A DNA stretch of 64,000 bases from Spirochaetota bacterium (GTDB lineage Bacteria > Spirochaetota > Spirochaetia > Treponematales > UBA12059): assembly GCA_022703505.1 (NCBI GenBank), contig JAKLDN010000006.1:1-64000 (forward strand), read 5' to 3'. The notes under the pieces were generated by a model, which had not been told where the DNA came from, did not search any database, and saw only the letters and a program-made list of their open reading frames with translations. The position numbers were made by a program, and so were the translations under genes. This document shows positions 1 to 34,440 of this stretch, in pieces. How positions within the stretch are numbered: the stretch's first letter is position 1; every line of letters begins with the position of its first letter.

Positions 1-680
1 CGGTGGTGGCCAGCGAGGTGCGCAAGCTGGCGGAGCGGAGCCAGAAGGCCTCGGGGGAGATCGGGGACCTGTCCCGGCACACCGTGGGCACCGCGACCAA
101 GGCGGGCGAGATCATCCAGGCCATCGTACCTGACATCCGGAAGACCAGCGACCTTGTGCAGGAGATCGCCAGCGCCTCGGCGGAGCAGAACTCGGGGGTG
201 GACCAGATCGCCAAGGCCATGACCCAGCTGGACACGGTGATCCAGCAGAACGCCAGCGCCAGCGAGGAGATGGCCAGCATGGCCGAGGAGCTTTCGAGCC
301 AAGCGGAGCAGCTGGCCCAGACCATCAGCTTCTTCAAGGTGGAGGGCGCCGCGCCGCGCATAGGCGCGGCGCTTGAGGCCGGCTTGCGCCGGCCTCAAGG
401 CGACGAAGCCCGACGGGCTTCGTCGAGGTCGACGGAGCGCAGCCCGGCAAGTATAGGAAAAACCTCGGCCAAGCCCGTGAAGGCTCTCCCCGCCGCGGGA
501 TCCGGACTATCCCCGAAGCCCGCCGCGGCGCCTCGTGAGACGGGTCGCGGCCCGTCTCACGGCAACGAAGCCCGCGGGGCTTCGTCGAGTTCTCCGGGCC
601 GGTCGGACGCCACGGGCATCACCGTCAAGGATGATCCCGACGCCACCTCCCTGGGCGACGATGACTTCGAGGAGTTCTGA
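1..680 (+). CDS. Methyl-accepting chemotaxis protein, C-terminal fragment (cut by left edge)
   Basis: The frame is open from the left edge (first whole codon at 3), so the sensory and membrane parts are missing. What remains begins inside the conserved signalling hairpin tip (VVASEVRKLAERS) that contacts CheA and CheW, followed by the descending coiled coil to about residue 115 (SAEQNSGVDQIAKAM; ASEEMASMAEELSSQAEQL). After that comes an unusual tail of about 110 residues rich in Ala, Pro, Ser and Arg, ending in an acidic EF. The tail coding DNA contains two copies of a palindromic repeat that also occurs between genes elsewhere in the window; they are read as similar peptides (GDEARRASSRS and GNEARGASSSS). 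cheW follows after 1 nt, so the two are probably co-transcribed. Family assignment is firm; the ligand cannot be inferred. Confidence 0.95.
   Translation, partial: VVASEVRKLAERSQKASGEIGDLSRHTVGTATKAGEIIQAIVPDIRKTSDLVQEIASASAEQNSGVDQIAKAMTQLDTVIQQNASASEEMASMAEELSSQAEQLAQTISFFKVEGAAPRIGAALEAGLRRPQGDEARRASSRSTERSPASIGKTSAKPVKALPAAGSGLSPKPAAAPRETGRGPSHGNEARGASSSSPGRSDATGITVKDDPDATSLGDDDFEEF
346..425 (+). repeat. Two-hairpin repeat copy 1 (inside mcp) plus an extra hairpin
   Basis: Hairpin at 346-355/363-372 (GCGCCGCGCC and its complement), then stem A 372-383/388-399 (CTTGAGGCCGGC, 12 bp perfect) and stem B 401-411/415-425 (CGACGAAGCCC, 11 bp perfect). The A-then-B order matches the other copies read in their own direction. 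This copy is in frame in the chemoreceptor gene with no stop. Confidence 0.9.
534..587 (+). repeat. Two-hairpin repeat copy 2 (inside mcp)
   Basis: Stem A 534-544/551-561 (CGTGAGACGGG, 11 bp) and stem B 565-573/577-585 (ACGAAGCCC, 9 bp), followed by the TCGAGTT end seen in other copies. Stem A differs in sequence from copy 1 but stays fully paired. It is translated as RETGRGPSHGNEARGASSSS. Confidence 0.9.
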
Positions 681-25825: not shown

Positions 25826-26725
25826 CTACCCCCGCGCAAGGGCGGAGGCCGCCAGCCGGAAGAGCTTCCGGCACTGGTCCGGCTTGGTATGGTAGCCCCC
25901 GCCCCCGGTGGATTGGCGGATCACCACGGTCCCGTACTCGTCGTCCCCTCCCCGCTCCACCTCGTAGCCCCGGGCGGAAAATCCCCGGAGCGCCTCGTAG
26001 GCGGGTCCCTTCCGTCCCCGGGTCAGGACCACGGCGTACATGTAGGGTACCGGTCCGTTGGCGCCGTTGTTGATGGCGGTCTGGAACTGGACGCCCACCA
26101 GGTCCCCGATCTTCTTTTTCGGTTCCAGCAGGAAGCGCAGGTCCTCGGGCACGTCCCGGCCTTCCTCGTCCTCGTCGAAGCGGATGTAGGGGGTCAGGAC
26201 CCAGCCCTCGGGCAGGGGTTCGGAGCGGATGGCCTCGAAGCCCAGGAGCTTCTGGGCGATGAGGCCCGGGGTGAAGACCTTTACCTTTCCAAAGAAGAGG
26301 GCCGGGAAGAGGAACAGAAGGGCGTCCAGGGCCACGAGGCCGGCTCCCCCGGAGATCCCGAAGGAGACGGGCACCGAGATCATGAGCAGGACTCCCGCCA
26401 GTATGCGGAGGGCGGACCGGCCCCCGGAAGCCCGGCGGAGCTTGCCGGCCCGGGAGAAGGCGTCCAGGATGCGGTCCACTTCCGCGGCGGTAACGGGCTT
26501 CCATTTCTCCAGGCCCTGGTCCTTGGGCTTGTTCGTCACCCTGCGGAGTCCCAGGGGGATCCAGCCCGCCAGTATCACCAGGGTACCCGGCAGGACGCCC
26601 ACGCCCACCTGGAGGGCCGCCCCCAGGGCGAAGAGGGCCCCGGTCAGGATGAGTCGGGCCGCCGGGCCCATCCGGAAGAACCGGAATCCCGCGGTCACGG
26701 TCGGCTTAAGGGACAGGTCGCTCAT
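25826..26725 (-). CDS. Uncharacterised membrane protein of the radical-SAM cluster
   Basis: 299 aa, not recognised. Four membrane helices in two pairs (LILTGALFALGAALQVGVGVLPGTLVILAGWIPLGL near 26-60; ILAGVLLMISVPVSFGISGGAGLVALDALLFLFPALFF near 105-145), with a soluble C-terminal domain of about 145 residues (GWVLTPYIRFDEDEEGRDVPEDLRF, then GVQFQTAINNGANGPVPYMYAVVL). It overlaps the radical-SAM gene by 20 nt (ATG 26725 with GGAGGA upstream), so expression is coupled. It could be a transporter, assembly factor or partner for the modified protein; nothing decides between these. Confidence 0.75.
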   Translation of the reverse strand: MSDLSLKPTVTAGFRFFRMGPAARLILTGALFALGAALQVGVGVLPGTLVILAGWIPLGLRRVTNKPKDQGLEKWKPVTAAEVDRILDAFSRAGKLRRASGGRSALRILAGVLLMISVPVSFGISGGAGLVALDALLFLFPALFFGKVKVFTPGLIAQKLLGFEAIRSEPLPEGWVLTPYIRFDEDEEGRDVPEDLRFLLEPKKKIGDLVGVQFQTAINNGANGPVPYMYAVVLTRGRKGPAYEALRGFSARGYEVERGGDDEYGTVVIRQSTGGGGYHTKPDQCRKLFRLAASALARG

Positions 26726-28148
26726 CGGTTCCTCCTCGGGCCGGTTCCCCGGTCGCTTCCGGCCCTGCGGACGAGGCCGGGCGGGCATGGCGGGCGCGGA
26801 AGGCCGGGCCCGCCTCCTCGATCTCCCCGTACCCCGCGTAGGACCAATACAGGGGGCAGGCCGCCTGGCAGGCCGCGAAGGCCGGGCAGGTCCGGCACTC
26901 CGCGGGGGCATACTCCTTGTTCTTGAGGGCCGCCGCGCGATCCCCGAACCAGACTTTTTCAAACCCATCCGACAGGAGGTTCCCCACCCCCTCGTCCCAG
27001 GACGAGCAGGGCAGGACGTCCCCCCGGGGATTCACGGAAAGAAGGCCGTCGCAGGCGGCACAGTTCTTGTTCCCCAGCCCTCGGGCCAGGGGGTTGTAGA
27101 GGCACATCGGCGTCGGGGAGTACCAGAGGAACTCCACCCCCGCCTCCAAGGCCCGCTTCCGGACCCGGTCCACCACGGGGCCTATCTCCCGGTAGGGCAC
27201 GAACAGAGCGTCCGCCTCGGGACTGCGGGCGGTGGGGATGAAGAGGTTGAGGGACATCCGTCGCAGCCCCAGGGACTTGGCCAGGGCGGGCATCCCCTCC
27301 AGGGCGTCCAGGTTGGTCCGGACCGCGGTGGTATTGGTCTGCACCGAGATCCCCGCCTCCATCAGGGCGCGGATACCCGCCACGCTCCGCTCCCAGGCCC
27401 CGGCGGCCCCGCACAGGTCGTCGTGGAGCTCCTCCTCCGGGGCTTCCAGGCTCACTTGGGCCGTCCGGAGCCCCGCCCGGAAGAGGTCCCGGGCGAGGGA
27501 CGGGGTCGCGAGGGTCCCGTTGGTCACCAGGTTGGTCCTGAGTTCGATCCGGACCGCGTATCGGACCAGCCGGGGCAGGTCCTCCCGCAGGAGGGGCTCC
27601 CCGCCCGTAAAGGAGAAGAAGGGGACCTTGGCCTCCTCCTTGAAGATCCGGAGGATCTTCTCCAGGTCCCGGGCCGGAAGGTCCTCGATCTCGGAGCGGC
27701 CGGACGCGGGCTCCTCGGCGCCCGCGGTCCCGGGGCGGCGACAGCCCGTTCCCGCGGAACATCCGGCGTAGCAGAAGCGGCAGCGGTTGTTGCAGCGGTA
27801 CGTGACCGCCAGCTCCGCCAGAACCGGCAGGCGGGTGAAGGAAAAGTCGTAGGCCACCCGGTCCGCGTCGGGCCGGCGCCCCGAGAGGGCCGCTTCCAGG
27901 GAGCGGAAGAAGGAGTCCGTCTCCCGGGCCCGCCCGGCGTTCAGGCCCGGGAAGTCGTCCAGGCGGCCCCCGGCCTCCAGGAAGAGGACCAGGGCCTTGG
28001 CCGTGGAATTGAGCTTGTAGACCCGGTTGGGGGGCAGGATGAGGACGTCGTCCTCCGGGCGCAAGAGGAGGCGGGACCGGACCTTCCGCCAGAAGGGGGC
28101 GATCCACCCCAGCTTCACGAGGCCTGCGGCAGCTCCTTCGGAACGCAT
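26706..28148 (-). CDS. Radical SAM/SPASM peptide-modifying enzyme with PqqD-like N-terminus
   Basis: 480 aa. Residues about 25-70 (LLLRPEDDVLILPPNRVYKLNSTAKALVLFLEAGG) resemble the PqqD/RRE fold that holds leader peptides. The radical SAM core has C119, C123 and C126 in YRCNNRCRFC, then FFSFTGGEPLLREDL. The C-terminal SPASM region supplies auxiliary-cluster Cys: NCAACDGLLSVNPRGDVLPC...CRTCPAFAACQAACP. This RRE-rSAM-SPASM layout is that of enzymes which crosslink or otherwise modify ribosomal peptides. The start overlaps the stop of the Cys-repeat protein (TGATG), strongly suggesting that protein is the substrate. The bond formed is unknown. Confidence 0.88.
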   Translation of the reverse strand: MRSEGAAAGLVKLGWIAPFWRKVRSRLLLRPEDDVLILPPNRVYKLNSTAKALVLFLEAGGRLDDFPGLNAGRARETDSFFRSLEAALSGRRPDADRVAYDFSFTRLPVLAELAVTYRCNNRCRFCYAGCSAGTGCRRPGTAGAEEPASGRSEIEDLPARDLEKILRIFKEEAKVPFFSFTGGEPLLREDLPRLVRYAVRIELRTNLVTNGTLATPSLARDLFRAGLRTAQVSLEAPEEELHDDLCGAAGAWERSVAGIRALMEAGISVQTNTTAVRTNLDALEGMPALAKSLGLRRMSLNLFIPTARSPEADALFVPYREIGPVVDRVRKRALEAGVEFLWYSPTPMCLYNPLARGLGNKNCAACDGLLSVNPRGDVLPCSSWDEGVGNLLSDGFEKVWFGDRAAALKNKEYAPAECRTCPAFAACQAACPLYWSYAGYGEIEEAGPAFRARHARPASSAGPEATGEPARGGTDERPVP

Positions 28149-29809
28149 CAGTGGCCGCCCCCGGACACGCAGGCGGAGTGGCAGGCCGAGTGGCACGCGG
28201 AATGGCAGGCGCTGTGGCAGGCCGAGTGGCAGGCGTCGTGGCAGGCGTTGTGGCAGGCCGAGTGGCAGGCGGACACGGTGCCCACGTCGGGCGGGGAGAA
28301 GCAGCCGGAGAAACAGGAGGCACTCCGCATGAAGTCCGCGTACCCCGTGCCCAGATCGGAGGGAAGGCGCACGGACTCGTAATAGGCGGGGCGGGAATGG
28401 ACCATCCAGTACCCGTGCCAGTAGGGGTCATACCGCCGGCCCGCCGCGGAGGTCCCGCCCGCCTCGACCCCGGACTCCTCCCGGCCGGCCCGGGCCAGGC
28501 GCTCCCGGTAGAAGGCCCGGGTGGCCTCCAGGTCGCAGTCCCAGATCTTCTCCTGGAGGCGCTTGATGGCCTCCTCGAAGAAGTCCGCCATGAGGCCCGA
28601 CAGGACCTTGCCCTCCGGGTCGAAGGCGGCCAGGAAGAGCTCCTCGTACTCGCTCTCGGCCTTGCGGGCCGAGAGGATGCGGATCCGCAGGGGGTCGGGG
28701 TCCAGGATCTCGACGATGCCCTGGGCCTTGAGTCCCTCCAGCATGATGGAGGCCACGCTGGCCAGGGGGAGCTCCAGGAGGAGAGCGGCCTCCACGGGGT
28801 GGAGGTCCTCGGCCACCTTGCCGGGGACCTGGTAGGAGCCTTCCTGGAGGCGGGGCGGGGTCCAGGCGTCCCCGGCCCAGGCTATGCCCTCCAGCACCGC
28901 GGCGGCCCGCCGGTAGGCCGATAGGCGCCGGGCGTACAGGACCAGGGCCAGGGCCGCGAGCCCGGCAAAGACCGGCGCCGCGACCCAGGGCCGGGTGCCC
29001 CAGTACTCCCGGGGTCCGACCCATACGTAGGGCTCGTAGGCTTCCTCGTACCCGTCCCCGCTGGCCGACGCGGCCCCGGCTTCGGGAAGGTCCATGCTAA
29101 GGTAGTCCGCGGGAAGGTAGAGGACCAGTTCCTGGGTTCCCCGGATCGGGACCCCCTCCTGGTAGAAGAGGAAGGTCAGGTAATGCCGGCCGTCGTCCCC
29201 GGGGGAACCGTAGTAGTCGATGCGGTTTTCCCGGTTGACGAACTCCTCCGTCCGCAGGGGGATGGCCCGCTTCTCCTCGTCCGTGAGGGTCGGTCCGGAT
29301 ACGGCCACGGGAAGGACGATCCGCACGGTCCGGGAATCCAGCATCTGGTCCCACTCCACGGGGGCCCAGGTGATGCGGACCAGGTCCCCGAGTTCGGGGC
29401 TCGTGGTCCTGCCGACCAGATCCGCGGCCGCGAAGTCCCCTCCGTAGGTCAGGTTCCAGAAGGAGGTCCCCCCCGTCCGGCGGCCACCCGCGAGCAGTAC
29501 GTCGTAGCGTCCGCTTCCCAGATTCTTGATGTCCAGGCCGACCCGGGAACCTCCGGGTAGGTCCGCCCAGCAGCGCTGGGAATCCCAGACGGGGGCGAAG
29601 GACTCGCCCTGGAAATAGAAGCCTCCCAGGGTCCCGGAGCTCACCACCCATTCCAGGCGGTAGAAGACCGTCCCCTTCCCGTCCGGCCGGAGGCTCACGG
29701 TGACGTCCACGGTGGCTACCCGGGATTCCAGGGCGGCCGCCGAGACGGCGGCGAGCAAAAGTACGCAAAGCGCCGCGGCGCGGTGGGGCCGCCGAAGGGT
29801 ATTCGTCAT
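28148..29809 (-). CDS. Membrane protein with C-terminal ACHS-repeat (nine-Cys) tail; putative radical-SAM substrate
   Basis: 553 aa. Signal peptide (AAALCVLLLAAVSAAALES, 11-29), a beta-rich extracytoplasmic domain to about 265 that recalls DUF2207-type proteins, one membrane helix (VAAPVFAGLAALALVLYA, 276-293), then a cytoplasmic domain with a winged-helix-like stretch (HPVEAALLLELPLASVASIMLEGL). The tail from 514 is nine tetrads: eight ACH[S/N/D] and one ACVS, giving Cys at 515, 519, 523 and on to 547, then GGGH. Two more Cys (499, 503) precede it. With the N-terminus outside, the tail would lie in the cytoplasm, reachable by the overlapping radical-SAM enzyme. ATG 29809 overlaps the previous gene's stop. 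Confidence 0.85.
   Translation of the reverse strand: MTNTLRRPHRAAALCVLLLAAVSAAALESRVATVDVTVSLRPDGKGTVFYRLEWVVSSGTLGGFYFQGESFAPVWDSQRCWADLPGGSRVGLDIKNLGSGRYDVLLAGGRRTGGTSFWNLTYGGDFAAADLVGRTTSPELGDLVRITWAPVEWDQMLDSRTVRIVLPVAVSGPTLTDEEKRAIPLRTEEFVNRENRIDYYGSPGDDGRHYLTFLFYQEGVPIRGTQELVLYLPADYLSMDLPEAGAASASGDGYEEAYEPYVWVGPREYWGTRPWVAAPVFAGLAALALVLYARRLSAYRRAAAVLEGIAWAGDAWTPPRLQEGSYQVPGKVAEDLHPVEAALLLELPLASVASIMLEGLKAQGIVEILDPDPLRIRILSARKAESEYEELFLAAFDPEGKVLSGLMADFFEEAIKRLQEKIWDCDLEATRAFYRERLARAGREESGVEAGGTSAAGRRYDPYWHGYWMVHSRPAYYESVRLPSDLGTGYADFMRSASCFSGCFSPPDVGTVSACHSACHNACHDACHSACHSACHSACHSACHSACVSGGGH
28151..28270 (-). repeat. 12-bp tandem repeat encoding the ACHS tail
   Basis: Nine units of about 12 bp (plus-strand core GTGGCAGGC) encode Ala-Cys-His-Ser/Asn/Asp. 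The units vary at synonymous and third positions, so the protein repeat, not only the DNA, appears maintained. Confidence 0.85.
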
Positions 29810-30429
29810 CGGAGTTCCTCCCGTATGGCCAGGGTGTCGCTCCCCCCGAGGCCGCCGTCCACGGACAGGCGGCGTTCCCGGACGTAGGCGATCCGTTCCT
29901 TCAGGAAGGCCAGGGTCCGGGCCTTGGCCTCCGGGAAGGGATCCGCATCCGGCAGGTCGAAGCGGCGCTCCACGGCGGTGCCGTCCAGTTCCCGGAGGTA
30001 GGCGGTGAGGGCCGCCAGGACGTCCCGGGCCGCGTCGTCCGCCTGGGGGTCCCGGGTGCCCTCCCGTCGGCAGGCGTCCAGGTACTCGCCGAAGGCCAGG
30101 GCGAAGGCCGCGGAGGCCGAGGCGACCTCGGCGTCCCGGATGCGCAGCGCGGCGATCCGGTCCCGGTCCTTCGCGGCGGCCGCGATCCCCGCCGCCAGGG
30201 AGGCGTCCAGGTCCCGGTCCCGTTCGCGGGCCGCGGCACGGCCCCCCGCCCCGGAGGCGAAGGCCGCGGCGGAAGCGGCCAGGAAGGCCCCCGCCCCGAT
30301 GCCGACCGCGGCGGGCACGGCGACGCCGGCCAGTCCCATCCCGACGCCCGCCGCCGCGGAGAGGACAAAGGCGCCCATTCCCAGGGGGGATCGTGCATAC
30401 CATCGGAGGAAATCCCGGGTACTCGTCAT
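29806..30429 (-). CDS. Uncharacterised membrane protein upstream of the Cys-repeat protein
   Basis: 207 aa, not recognised. An N-terminal pair of Gly/Ala-rich hydrophobic helices (MGAFVLSAAAGVGMGLAGVAVPAAVGIGAGAFLAAS) is followed by a charged helical domain with heptad-like spacing (RERDRDLDASLAAGIAAAAKDRDRIAALRIRDAEV; AEAKARTLAFLKERIAYVRERRL-type). The layout recalls two-helix plus coiled-coil membrane proteins. It ends overlapping the start of the Cys-repeat gene by 4 nt, so it belongs to the same cluster. ATG 30429 has no clear ribosome site. Confidence 0.7.
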   Translation of the reverse strand: MTSTRDFLRWYARSPLGMGAFVLSAAAGVGMGLAGVAVPAAVGIGAGAFLAASAAAFASGAGGRAAARERDRDLDASLAAGIAAAAKDRDRIAALRIRDAEVASASAAFALAFGEYLDACRREGTRDPQADDAARDVLAALTAYLRELDGTAVERRFDLPDADPFPEAKARTLAFLKERIAYVRERRLSVDGGLGGSDTLAIREELR

Positions 30430-30509: not shown

Positions 30510-31970
30510 TCAGTTGAGGACCGTGATCTCCACCCGCCGGTTCCGGGCGCGGTTCGCCTCCGTGTCGTTCGGCGCGATCGGACGCTCCGCCCCGAAGCCC
30601 CGGAAGAGGAACCGGGAGGCCGGGATGCCCCGGGCGACGAGCTCGTCCACAACCCGTTTGGCCCGGCGGATCGACAGGTCCTTCTGGCCCGCGGGATTGC
30701 CCACGTCCGCGGTGTGGCCGGTCACCAGAAGGGTGCGTTCCCCGGGCACGGACTTCAGGGCCGCGGCGATCCCGTCCAGGCGGCCCTTCTCCTCGGGCAG
30801 GAGGACGTCCTGGTCCGGGACGAAACGGAGCCCGAAGGCCACCAGGGTCGGCCCCTCGGGCCGGTCCTCCAGGGCGATCCCGGATCCTGGGTCCAGGGAG
30901 GAGGACCCCGTCGAGAGCGGACCCTCGGTGCCGGCGCCCATAAGACCGGAGCCGGGAGGGGCCGAAGCGCCAGGCGGGGATCCGGCCGGCATACCCGCCG
31001 TGCCCGGGGCCGGAGAGACGATCGGGGCGGCCGACGGGCTCGAAGATCCGGCACCCGGGCCGGGGACCGCGGGTTTCGGAGGCGGCGCCGACGAGGAGGA
31101 CGGGCCGGGCACGGCGGCCGCCCCCGGAGCTTCCTCGGCCAAAGCCGCTCGCAGGGCTCCCGACGCGGGGTCCGCGGTCCTCGGGATGGCGGCGTCGAAG
31201 AAGGTCAGGGTGAAGCCCCGGTGCCGGAGGGAGGGCCCCGAGGCGAACCGGAAGGTCTCGTCCAGGCGGTCCCGGATGAGCACGGGGCGGCCCGTGTCCG
31301 AGCGCACCAGGATATCCGCCTCGTGGGTCCCCTGGGCCTCCACGAGGGACGGGTCCCCCTTGGGATCCTGGCCCGCCCGGTACCGGACCGCGAACTTGGC
31401 GAAGATGCGCCGTACCGGGATGCCCTTGTAGGTCTCCTCCCCCCGGTACTCGTACTCCGCCAGGATCCGGGTGCGCGTGGGCACGCCGGAGTTCCGGGGA
31501 TCCACGACCCGGACCCCCTCCGCGGTCCAGCGGTCCCCGGGGGAGACGGGACCGGGCGGGAAGGCGGGGAAGCCCCGGAGTCCGGGAAACCCGTTGTCCA
31601 CGGTCATGCGTAGGGACCCGTCCGTCCCCATGCGGAAGGCCGCGGGGACCTGGTCGTCCACCCGTCGGGCCGCGGCGCTCAGGTCCCGTAGGGTCTCCTC
31701 GAAGACCAGGAAGTCCCCCTTCCAGAGGGCGTCCGGGGAGGGGCTCTCGGGCTCCAGACGACCCCGGACCTCCCGGTAGACGTGCCCTAGGTAGCGGCCG
31801 TCCTCGTAGCGGGACCAGTCGGACTTCTCGGTGACCACGTAGGAATCGGTCCCGGCGTAGGCCAGGAGGACGGGCTGGGCGAGACTCGGGGCCGCCGCCG
31901 CGCAGGCGAGGGCGGCCAGTACGGCCCGGACCCTCCCGGGGCGCGCGCCGGGGCCGCCCGGGGTCCTCAC
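30510..31970 (-). CDS. Exported OmpA-domain protein
   Basis: 486 aa. Signal sequence (AVLAALACAAAAPSLAQ), a ~250-residue N-terminal domain of unknown type (VLLAYAGTDSYVVTEKSDWSRYEDGRYLGHVYR), a long Pro/Ser/Ala-rich linker (about 280-355), and a C-terminal OmpA/MotB peptidoglycan-binding domain: TGHTADVGNPAGQKDLSIRRAKRVVDELVARGIPASRFLFRGFGAERPI, ending NRARNRRVEI. It probably tethers the outer membrane or a periplasmic complex to the cell wall. GTG 31970 overlaps the pgeF stop (GTGA), so it is coupled to it. Confidence 0.88.
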   Translation of the reverse strand: MRTPGGPGARPGRVRAVLAALACAAAAPSLAQPVLLAYAGTDSYVVTEKSDWSRYEDGRYLGHVYREVRGRLEPESPSPDALWKGDFLVFEETLRDLSAAARRVDDQVPAAFRMGTDGSLRMTVDNGFPGLRGFPAFPPGPVSPGDRWTAEGVRVVDPRNSGVPTRTRILAEYEYRGEETYKGIPVRRIFAKFAVRYRAGQDPKGDPSLVEAQGTHEADILVRSDTGRPVLIRDRLDETFRFASGPSLRHRGFTLTFFDAAIPRTADPASGALRAALAEEAPGAAAVPGPSSSSAPPPKPAVPGPGAGSSSPSAAPIVSPAPGTAGMPAGSPPGASAPPGSGLMGAGTEGPLSTGSSSLDPGSGIALEDRPEGPTLVAFGLRFVPDQDVLLPEEKGRLDGIAAALKSVPGERTLLVTGHTADVGNPAGQKDLSIRRAKRVVDELVARGIPASRFLFRGFGAERPIAPNDTEANRARNRRVEITVLN

Positions 31971-32728
31971 GCGGCGTCCCGGCCCGGGAGGCCGCAGACG
32001 GCGGCGGCCACCATGCGGGTGAAGAGCTCCGGCCCCTCCCGCCGGAAGGAGCCGAGGTCACCGTCGCAGGATGTGCAGCCGGAGATGCGGGTCACGGACC
32101 GGAGGCCCAAGGACCGTGCGATACCGAGGTTGGCGGCCCCCAGGTCCAGTCTCCAGGCTCCGTCCTCGAGCCTCGCGGCCTCGGGACCGAATTCGGCCCG
32201 GAAGCCCCGGGCTCGGTCCTCGGGGACCCGGTAACAGCAGGGGCCGATGGCGGGCCCCAGGAAGGCGTCGATCTCGGAGGGGCGGGCTCCGAAGCGTTCC
32301 TCGAGTCCCCGGACCGCGGCGGCGAGGATGCCGGTGCCCTGCCAGCCCGAGTGGAGGATCCCGTAGGCCCCGCTGGGAGCGTGGCGGATCCAGATGGGCA
32401 TGCAGTCCGCCACGGTCACCGTGGGGACCCAGGGTCCGGGCTCCACGATGAGGCCGTCCGCCCGGATTCCCCGGAGCTCCGCGGGGCCCTTGGGGAAGAG
32501 GACCGTCCGGGAATGGACCAGCTCCACCGCCAGGACCCGGCCGGGATCGATTCCCCGGTCCCGGAAGAAGTCCTCCCGCAGGGGGTTCGGCCGGTCGTGG
32601 AGGAAGCGCATGGATCCCAGGGGTCTCAGGGACAAGAGGGCCCAGGGGGCTCCGGGATCCGCGCCCAGGGGAAAGCGGGCGAAGCCGCCGGACCGGACCG
32701 AGTCGAGGGACAGTTCCGTGCAGGTCAC
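31967..32728 (-). CDS. pgeF: Peptidoglycan editing factor PgeF (YfiH/LACC1 family)
   Basis: 253 aa, family length. All signatures are present: TVTVADCMPIWI, GILHSGWQGTGILAAAVRGL, GPAIGPCCYRV and SGCTSCDGDLGSFRREGPE, with the His/Cys/His zinc triad of the family. Members have purine-nucleoside phosphorylase/adenosine deaminase-type activity in vitro and prevent faulty muropeptide incorporation in E. coli. GTG 32728 overlaps the upstream stop (GTGA). It lies in a three-gene coupled run with the OmpA-like and DUF5312-like genes, which suits an envelope role. Confidence 0.93.
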   Translation of the reverse strand: MTCTELSLDSVRSGGFARFPLGADPGAPWALLSLRPLGSMRFLHDRPNPLREDFFRDRGIDPGRVLAVELVHSRTVLFPKGPAELRGIRADGLIVEPGPWVPTVTVADCMPIWIRHAPSGAYGILHSGWQGTGILAAAVRGLEERFGARPSEIDAFLGPAIGPCCYRVPEDRARGFRAEFGPEAARLEDGAWRLDLGAANLGIARSLGLRSVTRISGCTSCDGDLGSFRREGPELFTRMVAAAVCGLPGRDAA

Positions 32729-34440
32729 GCCGGCTCCCGGGTCATACCCAGCTTCTCGAGCTCATCCAGGAAGTGGACCGTCCGCTCCAGGCGGTTCTTG
32801 ATGGAATCCAGGTTCCGCAGGAATTCCTTGTTGCCCTTGCCCTCGATGTAGGAAAGGTTGGACAGGGAATCGTAGCGTCCCCCGGCCTCCCCCTTGAGAA
32901 GGCCCTTCAGGATGGCCTGCATCCGCTTCATCGCCTCCCGGCTGCGGCTGAGCAAGGCTTCCGCCTCCCCGTTCGCGGCCTGGAGGGCCGCCTGGACCTT
33001 CCGGCGCTTGAGGGGCAGGGATACCAGCTCCTCCTTGGCCTGGACCCAGGCCGAACCGAGGTCCCCGCCGGGGCCGAGCCGGGCGTCCAGTCCGGACAGG
33101 GCCTCCGGGATCTGTAGGAGCTCGTTATACGCGTCCGTGTACTCCACGCGGTTGTCCTTCTTGTAGAACTCCCCCTCGATCAGGAGGATCTTGAGGGTCC
33201 GGTTCATCTCGGGCACGAAGAGCCGCTCGTAGAAGGCCGAGAGGAAGCCCAAAGCTTTTTCCAGCCGCACCGGGGGGCTGCCTTCCCTGCCCTCCTCGTT
33301 GATGTACTCGAACCGGACCGGCTCCGATGATCCCAGGAAGCCCGCTATGTCGGACTGGAGGTCCTGCATCCTCCGGGCCGTCCCGTAGAGGGACAGCTGT
33401 TTCTCGATCCTCTCCTTCCAGAATCCCTTGTAGATGGCGAACCAGTCCTCCCCGCCCGCGAGTTCCCGGGGCCGGTAGTTGGGGTCCTCCATCACCACCC
33501 GCAGGATCTCGTGGAGGGGAACCCGGGCGTTGAAGGACCGGATCCGGGCCAGGGCCTCCTCCACCCGGGCCAGTTGGGTCTTCAAGGCCGTCTCGGCGTC
33601 GAAATCGGGGTTCTCCATCTCCTCCCGCATCTGGAAGACCAGGAGGGATTCCATGAGCTTCAGGGAGGGCGGGGAGGCCATGGAGTAGAGGATGTCCGCG
33701 AGCTCGGACATGAGGTCCCGGGCGGTGACGAAGGGGCTTTCCGGGGCGGCCCCGCCCGCCCCCTCGAAGCAGGAGAACAGGCGGTCGTACAGGAATCCCG
33801 CCACCCGCTTCAGGAAGGCGAGGCTCCGGACGTCGGCGTACATCCTCCGGCGGCTCTCCTCGGGCATCGAGGAAAGGATGCCGTCGAAGGCGGTCCAGAC
33901 GGCCGTCCGCACTTCGGGCTCCCCCGCCAGGGAATTGGTTTGGGCAAAAAGGAAGGGATCCGTCTCGGAAAGGAGCCTTTGGTGCTGTTCCTCCAGTTCC
34001 AGGGAGGCCAGGAAGGCATAGAAAGCTCCCCGGTCCTTTTCGACCGACCTGTCCAGGAGGTCGTAGATGTACCGCGCCCCGTCCCGGAGGTCCCGGAGCT
34101 CCGCGAGCATGCGGTTCAGGAAGACCCGGCGGGAATAGGACACCAGCCCCGGGCTCCCCAGCTCGATCCGGCGCGCCAAGTGCCTGAGCAGGAGTTCCTT
34201 GACCAGTTCGTCCCGGGGCTTCCCCGAGAACAGCCTCCGGACCAGGATGACCAGCCGTGCCAGGGGACCGAGCTCCCGGTACTGGGCGGAATAGTCGACC
34301 GGGGGTTCCCGCACGGTCTCCGGCCGGAACATCGGTTCGTCGGACACCTCGGCGGTCCCCCGGATCCGGGTGAGGAGGTCCCGCCGTTCTTCCCGGGAAA
34401 GGCCCCGAACCAGGCTGTCGAAGGTCGAGGGTTCGCTCAT
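32725..34440 (-). CDS. DUF5312-like spirochaete protein
   Basis: 571 aa, soluble and mostly helical, without recognised catalytic motif. The opening MSEPSTFDSLVRGLSREERRDLLTRI, the central VILVRRLFSGKPRDELVKELLLRHLARRIE and the C-terminal SNLSYIEGKGNKEFLRNLDSIKNRLERTVHFLDEL resemble a long family kept in spirochaetes (DUF5312, from memory). The function is unknown. It is first in the operon with pgeF and the OmpA-like gene; ATG 34440 has GGGG-type pairing only. Confidence 0.75.
   Translation of the reverse strand: MSEPSTFDSLVRGLSREERRDLLTRIRGTAEVSDEPMFRPETVREPPVDYSAQYRELGPLARLVILVRRLFSGKPRDELVKELLLRHLARRIELGSPGLVSYSRRVFLNRMLAELRDLRDGARYIYDLLDRSVEKDRGAFYAFLASLELEEQHQRLLSETDPFLFAQTNSLAGEPEVRTAVWTAFDGILSSMPEESRRRMYADVRSLAFLKRVAGFLYDRLFSCFEGAGGAAPESPFVTARDLMSELADILYSMASPPSLKLMESLLVFQMREEMENPDFDAETALKTQLARVEEALARIRSFNARVPLHEILRVVMEDPNYRPRELAGGEDWFAIYKGFWKERIEKQLSLYGTARRMQDLQSDIAGFLGSSEPVRFEYINEEGREGSPPVRLEKALGFLSAFYERLFVPEMNRTLKILLIEGEFYKKDNRVEYTDAYNELLQIPEALSGLDARLGPGGDLGSAWVQAKEELVSLPLKRRKVQAALQAANGEAEALLSRSREAMKRMQAILKGLLKGEAGGRYDSLSNLSYIEGKGNKEFLRNLDSIKNRLERTVHFLDELEKLGMTREPA

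Follow-up and report, generated by a model that had tools for sequence, protein, structure and literature searches.

A predicted radical SAM modification system paired with cysteine-repeat tails of DUF2207-like membrane proteins in bacteria and Asgard archaea

The locus, the tail protein and the enzyme

The window, a 64,000-nucleotide stretch from a 3.66 Mb Spirochaetota assembly, carries an operon-like run of four overlapping genes on the minus strand (P0004, P0001, P0002 and P0003, 30429-25826) with the following features:

29806..30429, minus strand: P0004, two-helix membrane protein whose membership in the system is uncertain
28148..29809, minus strand: P0001, tail-bearing divergent DUF2207-like membrane protein, 553 aa
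29729..29809, minus strand: P0001 N-terminal signal-peptide-like helix, residues 1-27 (hydrophobic window 9-34, helix 7-23)
29102..29728, minus strand: P0001 exoplasmic beta-sandwich, residues 28-236, Ost1/ribophorin-I-like fold (VIA-align to 8agb_E)
28910..28993, minus strand: P0001 single transmembrane helix, residues about 273-300; basic residues after the helix mark the cytoplasmic side
28460..28822, minus strand: P0001 cytoplasmic helical or winged-helix-like domain, residues about 330-450 (AlphaFold2, mostly pLDDT above 90)
28301..28342, minus strand: P0001 pre-tail motif YxxFMRSxxCFxGC, residues 490-503, conserved in homologues
28151..28270, minus strand: P0001 Cys tail, residues 514-553, (ACHx)8-ACVS-GGGH
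26706..28148, minus strand: P0002, RRE-radical SAM-SPASM enzyme, 480 aa
27885..28106, minus strand: P0002 PqqD-like RRE domain, residues about 15-88 (model superposition on SkfB, 25-433, and SuiB, 17-447)
27771..27794, minus strand: P0002 radical SAM motif CxxxCxxC (C119, C123, C126), invariant in 52 homologues
26856..27104, minus strand: P0002 SPASM region, C349, C363, C381 and CX2CX5CX3C at 418-431
25826..26725, minus strand: P0003, membrane protein with several spans, the third partner in single-array loci

Since neighbouring genes overlap, the four look like one operon: P0004 and P0001 share ATGA, the stop of P0001 and the start of P0002 share TGATG, which bears out an earlier note on this DNA in placing the P0001 stop over the start of a radical SAM/SPASM gene, and P0003 begins within the 3' end of the P0002 gene. 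Upstream (30510-34440 of the window) lie OmpA-like, PgeF-like and DUF5312 genes, an order shared by roughly half of the spirochaete loci that were compared.

The P0001 coordinates, its length and its tail of eight ACHx units, ACVS and GGGH were all found as the earlier note had given them, the units reading ACHS-ACHN-ACHD-(ACHS)5-ACVS-GGGH. The cytoplasmic location claimed for the tail likewise fits the predicted topology of a signal peptide and one membrane helix followed by basic residues. In the AlphaFold2 model (mean pLDDT 82) the tail portion is of low confidence, and its comparison with solved structures gave no match; the beta-sandwich superimposes on 8agb_E over 180 residues (Z 16.3, rmsd 2.6). 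P0001 itself matches nothing in Pfam or NCBIfam, including PF09972 (DUF2207) and PF20990 (DUF2207_C), which are matched by 10 (best 1.5e-4) and 2 (1.8e-5) of its 46 relatives, respectively, and its own genome holds no PF09972 match. The body of P0001 appears to be divergent DUF2207-like, with an Ost1-like exoplasmic domain, one membrane helix, a cytoplasmic domain and the tail. Ahead of the tail, Y490, F493, S496, C499, G502 and C503 are near-invariant among 35 bacterial homologues, and the motif YxxFMRSxxCFxGC that they form is a candidate recognition sequence for the enzyme. P0001 has its last basic tryptic site at R495, with neither Lys nor Arg beyond it.

A radical SAM core is present in P0002 (PF04055, 94 bits), as is a SPASM region (PF13186, 33.1 bits) with an exact CX2CX5CX3C, and the radical SAM and SPASM cysteines are present as the earlier note had claimed. 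Its PqqD-like N-terminus, at first a guess from sequence, is backed by the AlphaFold2 model (pLDDT 88), in which residues 28-88 fold into three strands accompanied by helices and which superimposes, N-terminal domain included, on SkfB (Z 26.7, 339 residues, rmsd 3.8) and SuiB (Z 26.6, 383 residues, rmsd 4.0), both RRE-bearing peptide maturases and the best structural matches of P0002. No NCBIfam model (June 2026) comes near its cut-off for P0002. The highest-scoring models include those of heme-pathway enzymes (NirJ2, AhbD), an identity that was rejected, as these scores reach about a quarter of the cut-offs and the enzymes have different partners.

Conservation of the tail and its co-occurrence with the enzyme

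The tail is under purifying selection. Across the 35 bacterial homologues, a tail position shows its commonest residue in 94% of sequences on average, whereas the averages for the cytoplasmic domain and the beta-sandwich are 61% and 58%, respectively, and pN/pS in the tail is 0.14 among 28 spirochaete sequences (pS 0.67, near saturation), 0.11 among 13 Thorarchaeia sequences and 0.16 among 8 Myxococcota sequences. Invariant serines of the tail are encoded by TCN in some cases and by AGY in others, two codon sets that no single synonymous step connects, and array length is nearly constant inside each group, unlike that of a slipping DNA repeat. Conservation, fixed array length and codon divergence rule out a chance repeat or a recent DNA expansion, because dozens of species keep the tail despite saturating synonymous change. 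The genome search argues likewise: of 393 Spirochaetota genomes, 21 contain a DNA pattern for CHxACHxACHxAC and none contains its reversed control. A few pattern matches were discarded as low-complexity chance without tail proteins, one at L130 (G008 C42) and others in G851, G870 and G877, the last three of which the enzyme search left out.

With P0002 as query (E 1e-40), the enzyme was found in 21/21 tail-bearing Spirochaetota genomes and in 0/372 without the tail, counts whose Fisher values are not to be taken literally since the genomes are not independent; the pair occurs in 17 of 168 Spirochaetota genera. Seven genomes of the phylum Myxococcota also carry it. Among 227 Asgard genomes, 32 have an ACHS tail and 29 of these a close enzyme. 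Tails commonly lacking a radical SAM neighbour, which the earlier note had named as the outcome that would speak against its proposal, were looked for, and these counts show the opposite pattern. Two of the three Asgard genomes without a detected close enzyme (G603, G640) have the tail gene close to the end of a contig, beyond which the enzyme gene may lie; the third (G633) is a true exception. The tail protein of G633 (L216) has a polytopic membrane domain in place of the usual N-terminal part, and one Ser is changed to Ala. Conversely, G626 has an enzyme beside an integrase-like gene and no detected tail.

Where contigs are intact, tail and enzyme genes almost always lie side by side. Their order in Myxococcota and in Thorarchaeia-type Asgard genomes differs from that in spirochaetes; in Thorarchaeia, tail and enzyme are transcribed divergently from either side of a conserved 138-aa gene (L163:5296-5712, of no known family). 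Because of this divergent orientation the pair is not merely inherited gene order. Variants include a single enzyme gene flanked by two tail proteins (L035) and, in G414, an additional tail gene whose contig has no enzyme (L162).

The earlier note had also pointed to two flanking membrane proteins. Both are kept in 15/15 spirochaete loci and neither matches Pfam or NCBIfam. P0003 stands as a component, being related to the gene that follows the enzyme in Myxococcota (hhalign E 1.9e-14); P0004 is conserved in spirochaetes only, and its membership is uncertain. Loci of a second, block type, in the f39 spirochaete family and in Thorarchaeia, have a two-helix zinc-ribbon protein (E 7.8e-10) instead of P0003, and no relation was found between P0003 and this Thorarchaeia partner. 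Thorarchaeia loci encode a membrane zinc-ribbon/HTH protein (L163:1803-2591) with a relative in f39 spirochaetes, and a D-serine dehydratase/alanine racemase-fold gene (L163:2602-3783) adjoins the enzyme in 5/8 of them.

About 45 other Asgard genomes encode enzymes 31-37% identical to that of Thorarchaeia, several of which directly follow a membrane protein of similar anatomy ending in CACACACACAGGGR or CACACAGCACACAGGGR. This CACA tail, CACACACAGGG[R/W], occurs in 39 Asgard genomes, 38 of them with a matching enzyme; in some, the tail gene lies on a different contig from the enzyme and is still present. CACA tails lack His and have Cys every 2 residues, as against every 4 in ACHS tails, and Ala-Cys is the constant element of both; their enzymes belong to the same family. 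In 13/13 CACA loci a class I methyltransferase gene adjoins the enzyme. Loci L197-L203 and L206-L208 illustrate the type, with a DUF2207-like protein bearing a CACACACAGGGR tail, the radical SAM enzyme and the methyltransferase. In one genome (G506) the tail is a hybrid, with ACHS units first and CACACACAGGGW after them, and may be intermediate between the two types; in full it reads CHSACHDACHSACHSACVSCACACACAGGGW, and the protein bearing it (L155/L168) has an internal zinc ribbon.

A tree of 52 enzymes, built with tail data left out, separates a single-array ACHS group, a block ACHS group uniting f39 and Thorarchaeia (a weakly supported union, 82/72) and the CACA group. Tail class changes 4 times on this tree, close to the minimum of 3 and far from the 21 of shuffles.

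What the enzyme may do to the tail

Because the enzyme is almost always found with a tail protein, the tail is very probably its target. From this genetic evidence we infer, with a probability of roughly 0.8, that P0001-type tails are substrates of P0002-type enzymes, as the earlier note had suggested and as the co-occurrence in Spirochaetota and Asgard genomes supports. The RRE of P0002 would dock on the cytoplasmic end of P0001, possibly at FMRSxxCFxGC, and the enzyme would then modify successive Ala-Cys units of the repeat, with P0003 as a putative membrane accessory. No peptidase or exporter gene adjoins. The modified tail would remain part of the membrane protein and may form a rigid, metal-binding or redox-active cytoplasmic element, a role that is a guess.

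Thioether cross-linking is the commonest Cys chemistry of such radical SAM/SPASM enzymes. The modification would most probably consist of oxidative thioether cross-links from Cys to a neighbouring residue, each with a loss of 2 Da, a chemistry to which we give about even odds. One bond geometry common to both tail types is not obvious, because of the different Cys spacing, and the tail has no Asp or Glu acceptor placed as in PapB substrates. A different change to the tail, such as epimerisation, a Cys-His bond, C-C cyclisation or cysteine desulfuration, is a serious if less favoured possibility: relatives of P0002 span C-S, C-C and epimerase chemistry, and the fourth AuxII Cys is replaced by Glu in 38/40 ACHS-group enzymes (at +11 after C431 in 33/35 outside f39, at +12 in 5/5 f39 enzymes), recalling the Asp of PqqE, a C-C bond former with a 3Cys-Asp cluster (PMC8326336). 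By analogy, this Glu may be a cluster ligand; CACA-group enzymes mostly have Cys there. Against a non-thioether change stands the dominance of Cys in the array, where it is, apart from Ala, the only residue in every ACHS and CACA unit.

Two further alternatives would take the tail out of its role as a permanently modified element, and we regard each as unlikely. The tail could be an unmodified metal- or cluster-binding Cys-His array, with the enzyme modifying something else in the same pathway. Cys-His dyads at four-residue steps are plausible metal ligands and G633 retains its tail with no detectable enzyme, but His-free CACA tails share the enzyme family and the near-strict co-occurrence, the peptide-binding RRE fold and a tail class that tracks the enzyme tree point to a peptide substrate, and the neighbourhoods of the enzyme contain no further small Cys-rich protein that is conserved. 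Equally improbable is a classical RiPP, in which the modified tail would be cut from the protein to give a free small molecule or peptide. The enzyme family of SkfB and SuiB makes such peptides, and the DUF2207-like body could serve as a large leader; however, no peptidase or exporter was recognised among the conserved genes of the Spirochaetota, Myxococcota, f39, Thorarchaeia or CACA loci, and the tail ends a large membrane protein whose domains are conserved too. Finally, the chance placing of a Cys-repeat protein beside an unrelated enzyme, for which inherited gene order within spirochaetes could speak and nothing more, is refuted by the co-occurrence data, the pair being found in three phyla and two domains, with changed gene order and also in trans.

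Returning to the tail as substrate, we tentatively propose, with slightly less than even confidence, a new and ancient class of radical SAM modification in bacteria and Asgard archaea, in which a receptor-like membrane protein would carry a permanent, enzyme-built Cys tail as a cytoplasmic metal, redox or scaffold element and not as a secreted peptide; the tails would come in at least two chemistries (ACHS and CACA), each having diverged in step with its enzymes. Radical SAM peptide maturases are known chiefly from small peptides that are exported or form cofactors. The target predicted here is a fixed membrane-protein tail whose sequence is almost identical in spirochaetes, myxobacteria and Asgard archaea. 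Co-expressing the repeat with its paired enzyme would be a direct test of the chemistry, and the contrast between ACHS and CACA tails offers a natural experiment for enzyme specificity. Furthermore, the pair gives a first handle on the possible role of one branch of the large, unexplained DUF2207-like group.

Comparison with known systems

The kinds of component are already known, and their combination is not described in NCBIfam (June 2026), where no model claims the enzyme or the tail protein, or in the literature found; searches of the open-licence PMC literature for DUF2207 with radical SAM and for Asgard radical SAM RiPPs returned no paper. The earlier note's remark that it recognised no described system of this make-up thus holds for the databases and literature searched. 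SkfB, SuiB and PqqE with PqqD have the same RRE-radical SAM-SPASM/twitch order, CxxxCxxC and CX2CX5CX3C as P0002, but these use a short leader-core peptide instead of the predicted fixed cytoplasmic tail of a 500-residue membrane protein, and they lack the Glu that ACHS-group enzymes have for the fourth AuxII Cys.

The ACGX system (TIGR04340) likewise combines a SPASM enzyme with an Ala-Cys repeat target; however, P0002 scores 55.9 bits, far under the 400-bit cut-off, and the repeat here, ACHx or CACA, comes fused to a membrane protein. The ranthipeptide freyrasin and its enzyme PapB resemble the P0002 system in having repeated Cys motifs with three-residue spacing and one SPASM enzyme, yet PapB targets CX3D/E (PMC9413430), whereas the P0001 tail is CX3C with D at one or two positions at most. 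The PapB model gives 86 bits for the Thorarchaeia enzyme against a 340-bit cut-off and is not among the 25 NCBIfam families listed for P0002.

As for the membrane protein, DUF2207 proteins have their N-part outside and their C-part inside with a Gly/Ser stretch (PMC10457818), similar to P0001 with its large outside N-domain, membrane helix and cytoplasmic C-part with a low-complexity tail, although this tail is usually Gly/Ser in DUF2207 and Cys in P0001. The nearest published idea that we found concerns TIGR04222 membrane proteins, whose disordered Cys-rich C-termini have been proposed as substrates of an MNIO metalloenzyme encoded by the adjacent gene (PMC12452194). The TIGR04222 profile has no match in P0001 and matches 2 of its 46 relatives at E 0.003, and no MNIO enzyme was noticed among the conserved neighbour genes of our loci. 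The idea and the anatomy are the same as for P0001 and P0002, but the TIGR04222 tails are predicted to be periplasmic and their enzyme is an MNIO, whereas the P0001 tail is predicted to be cytoplasmic and its presumed partner is a radical SAM enzyme.
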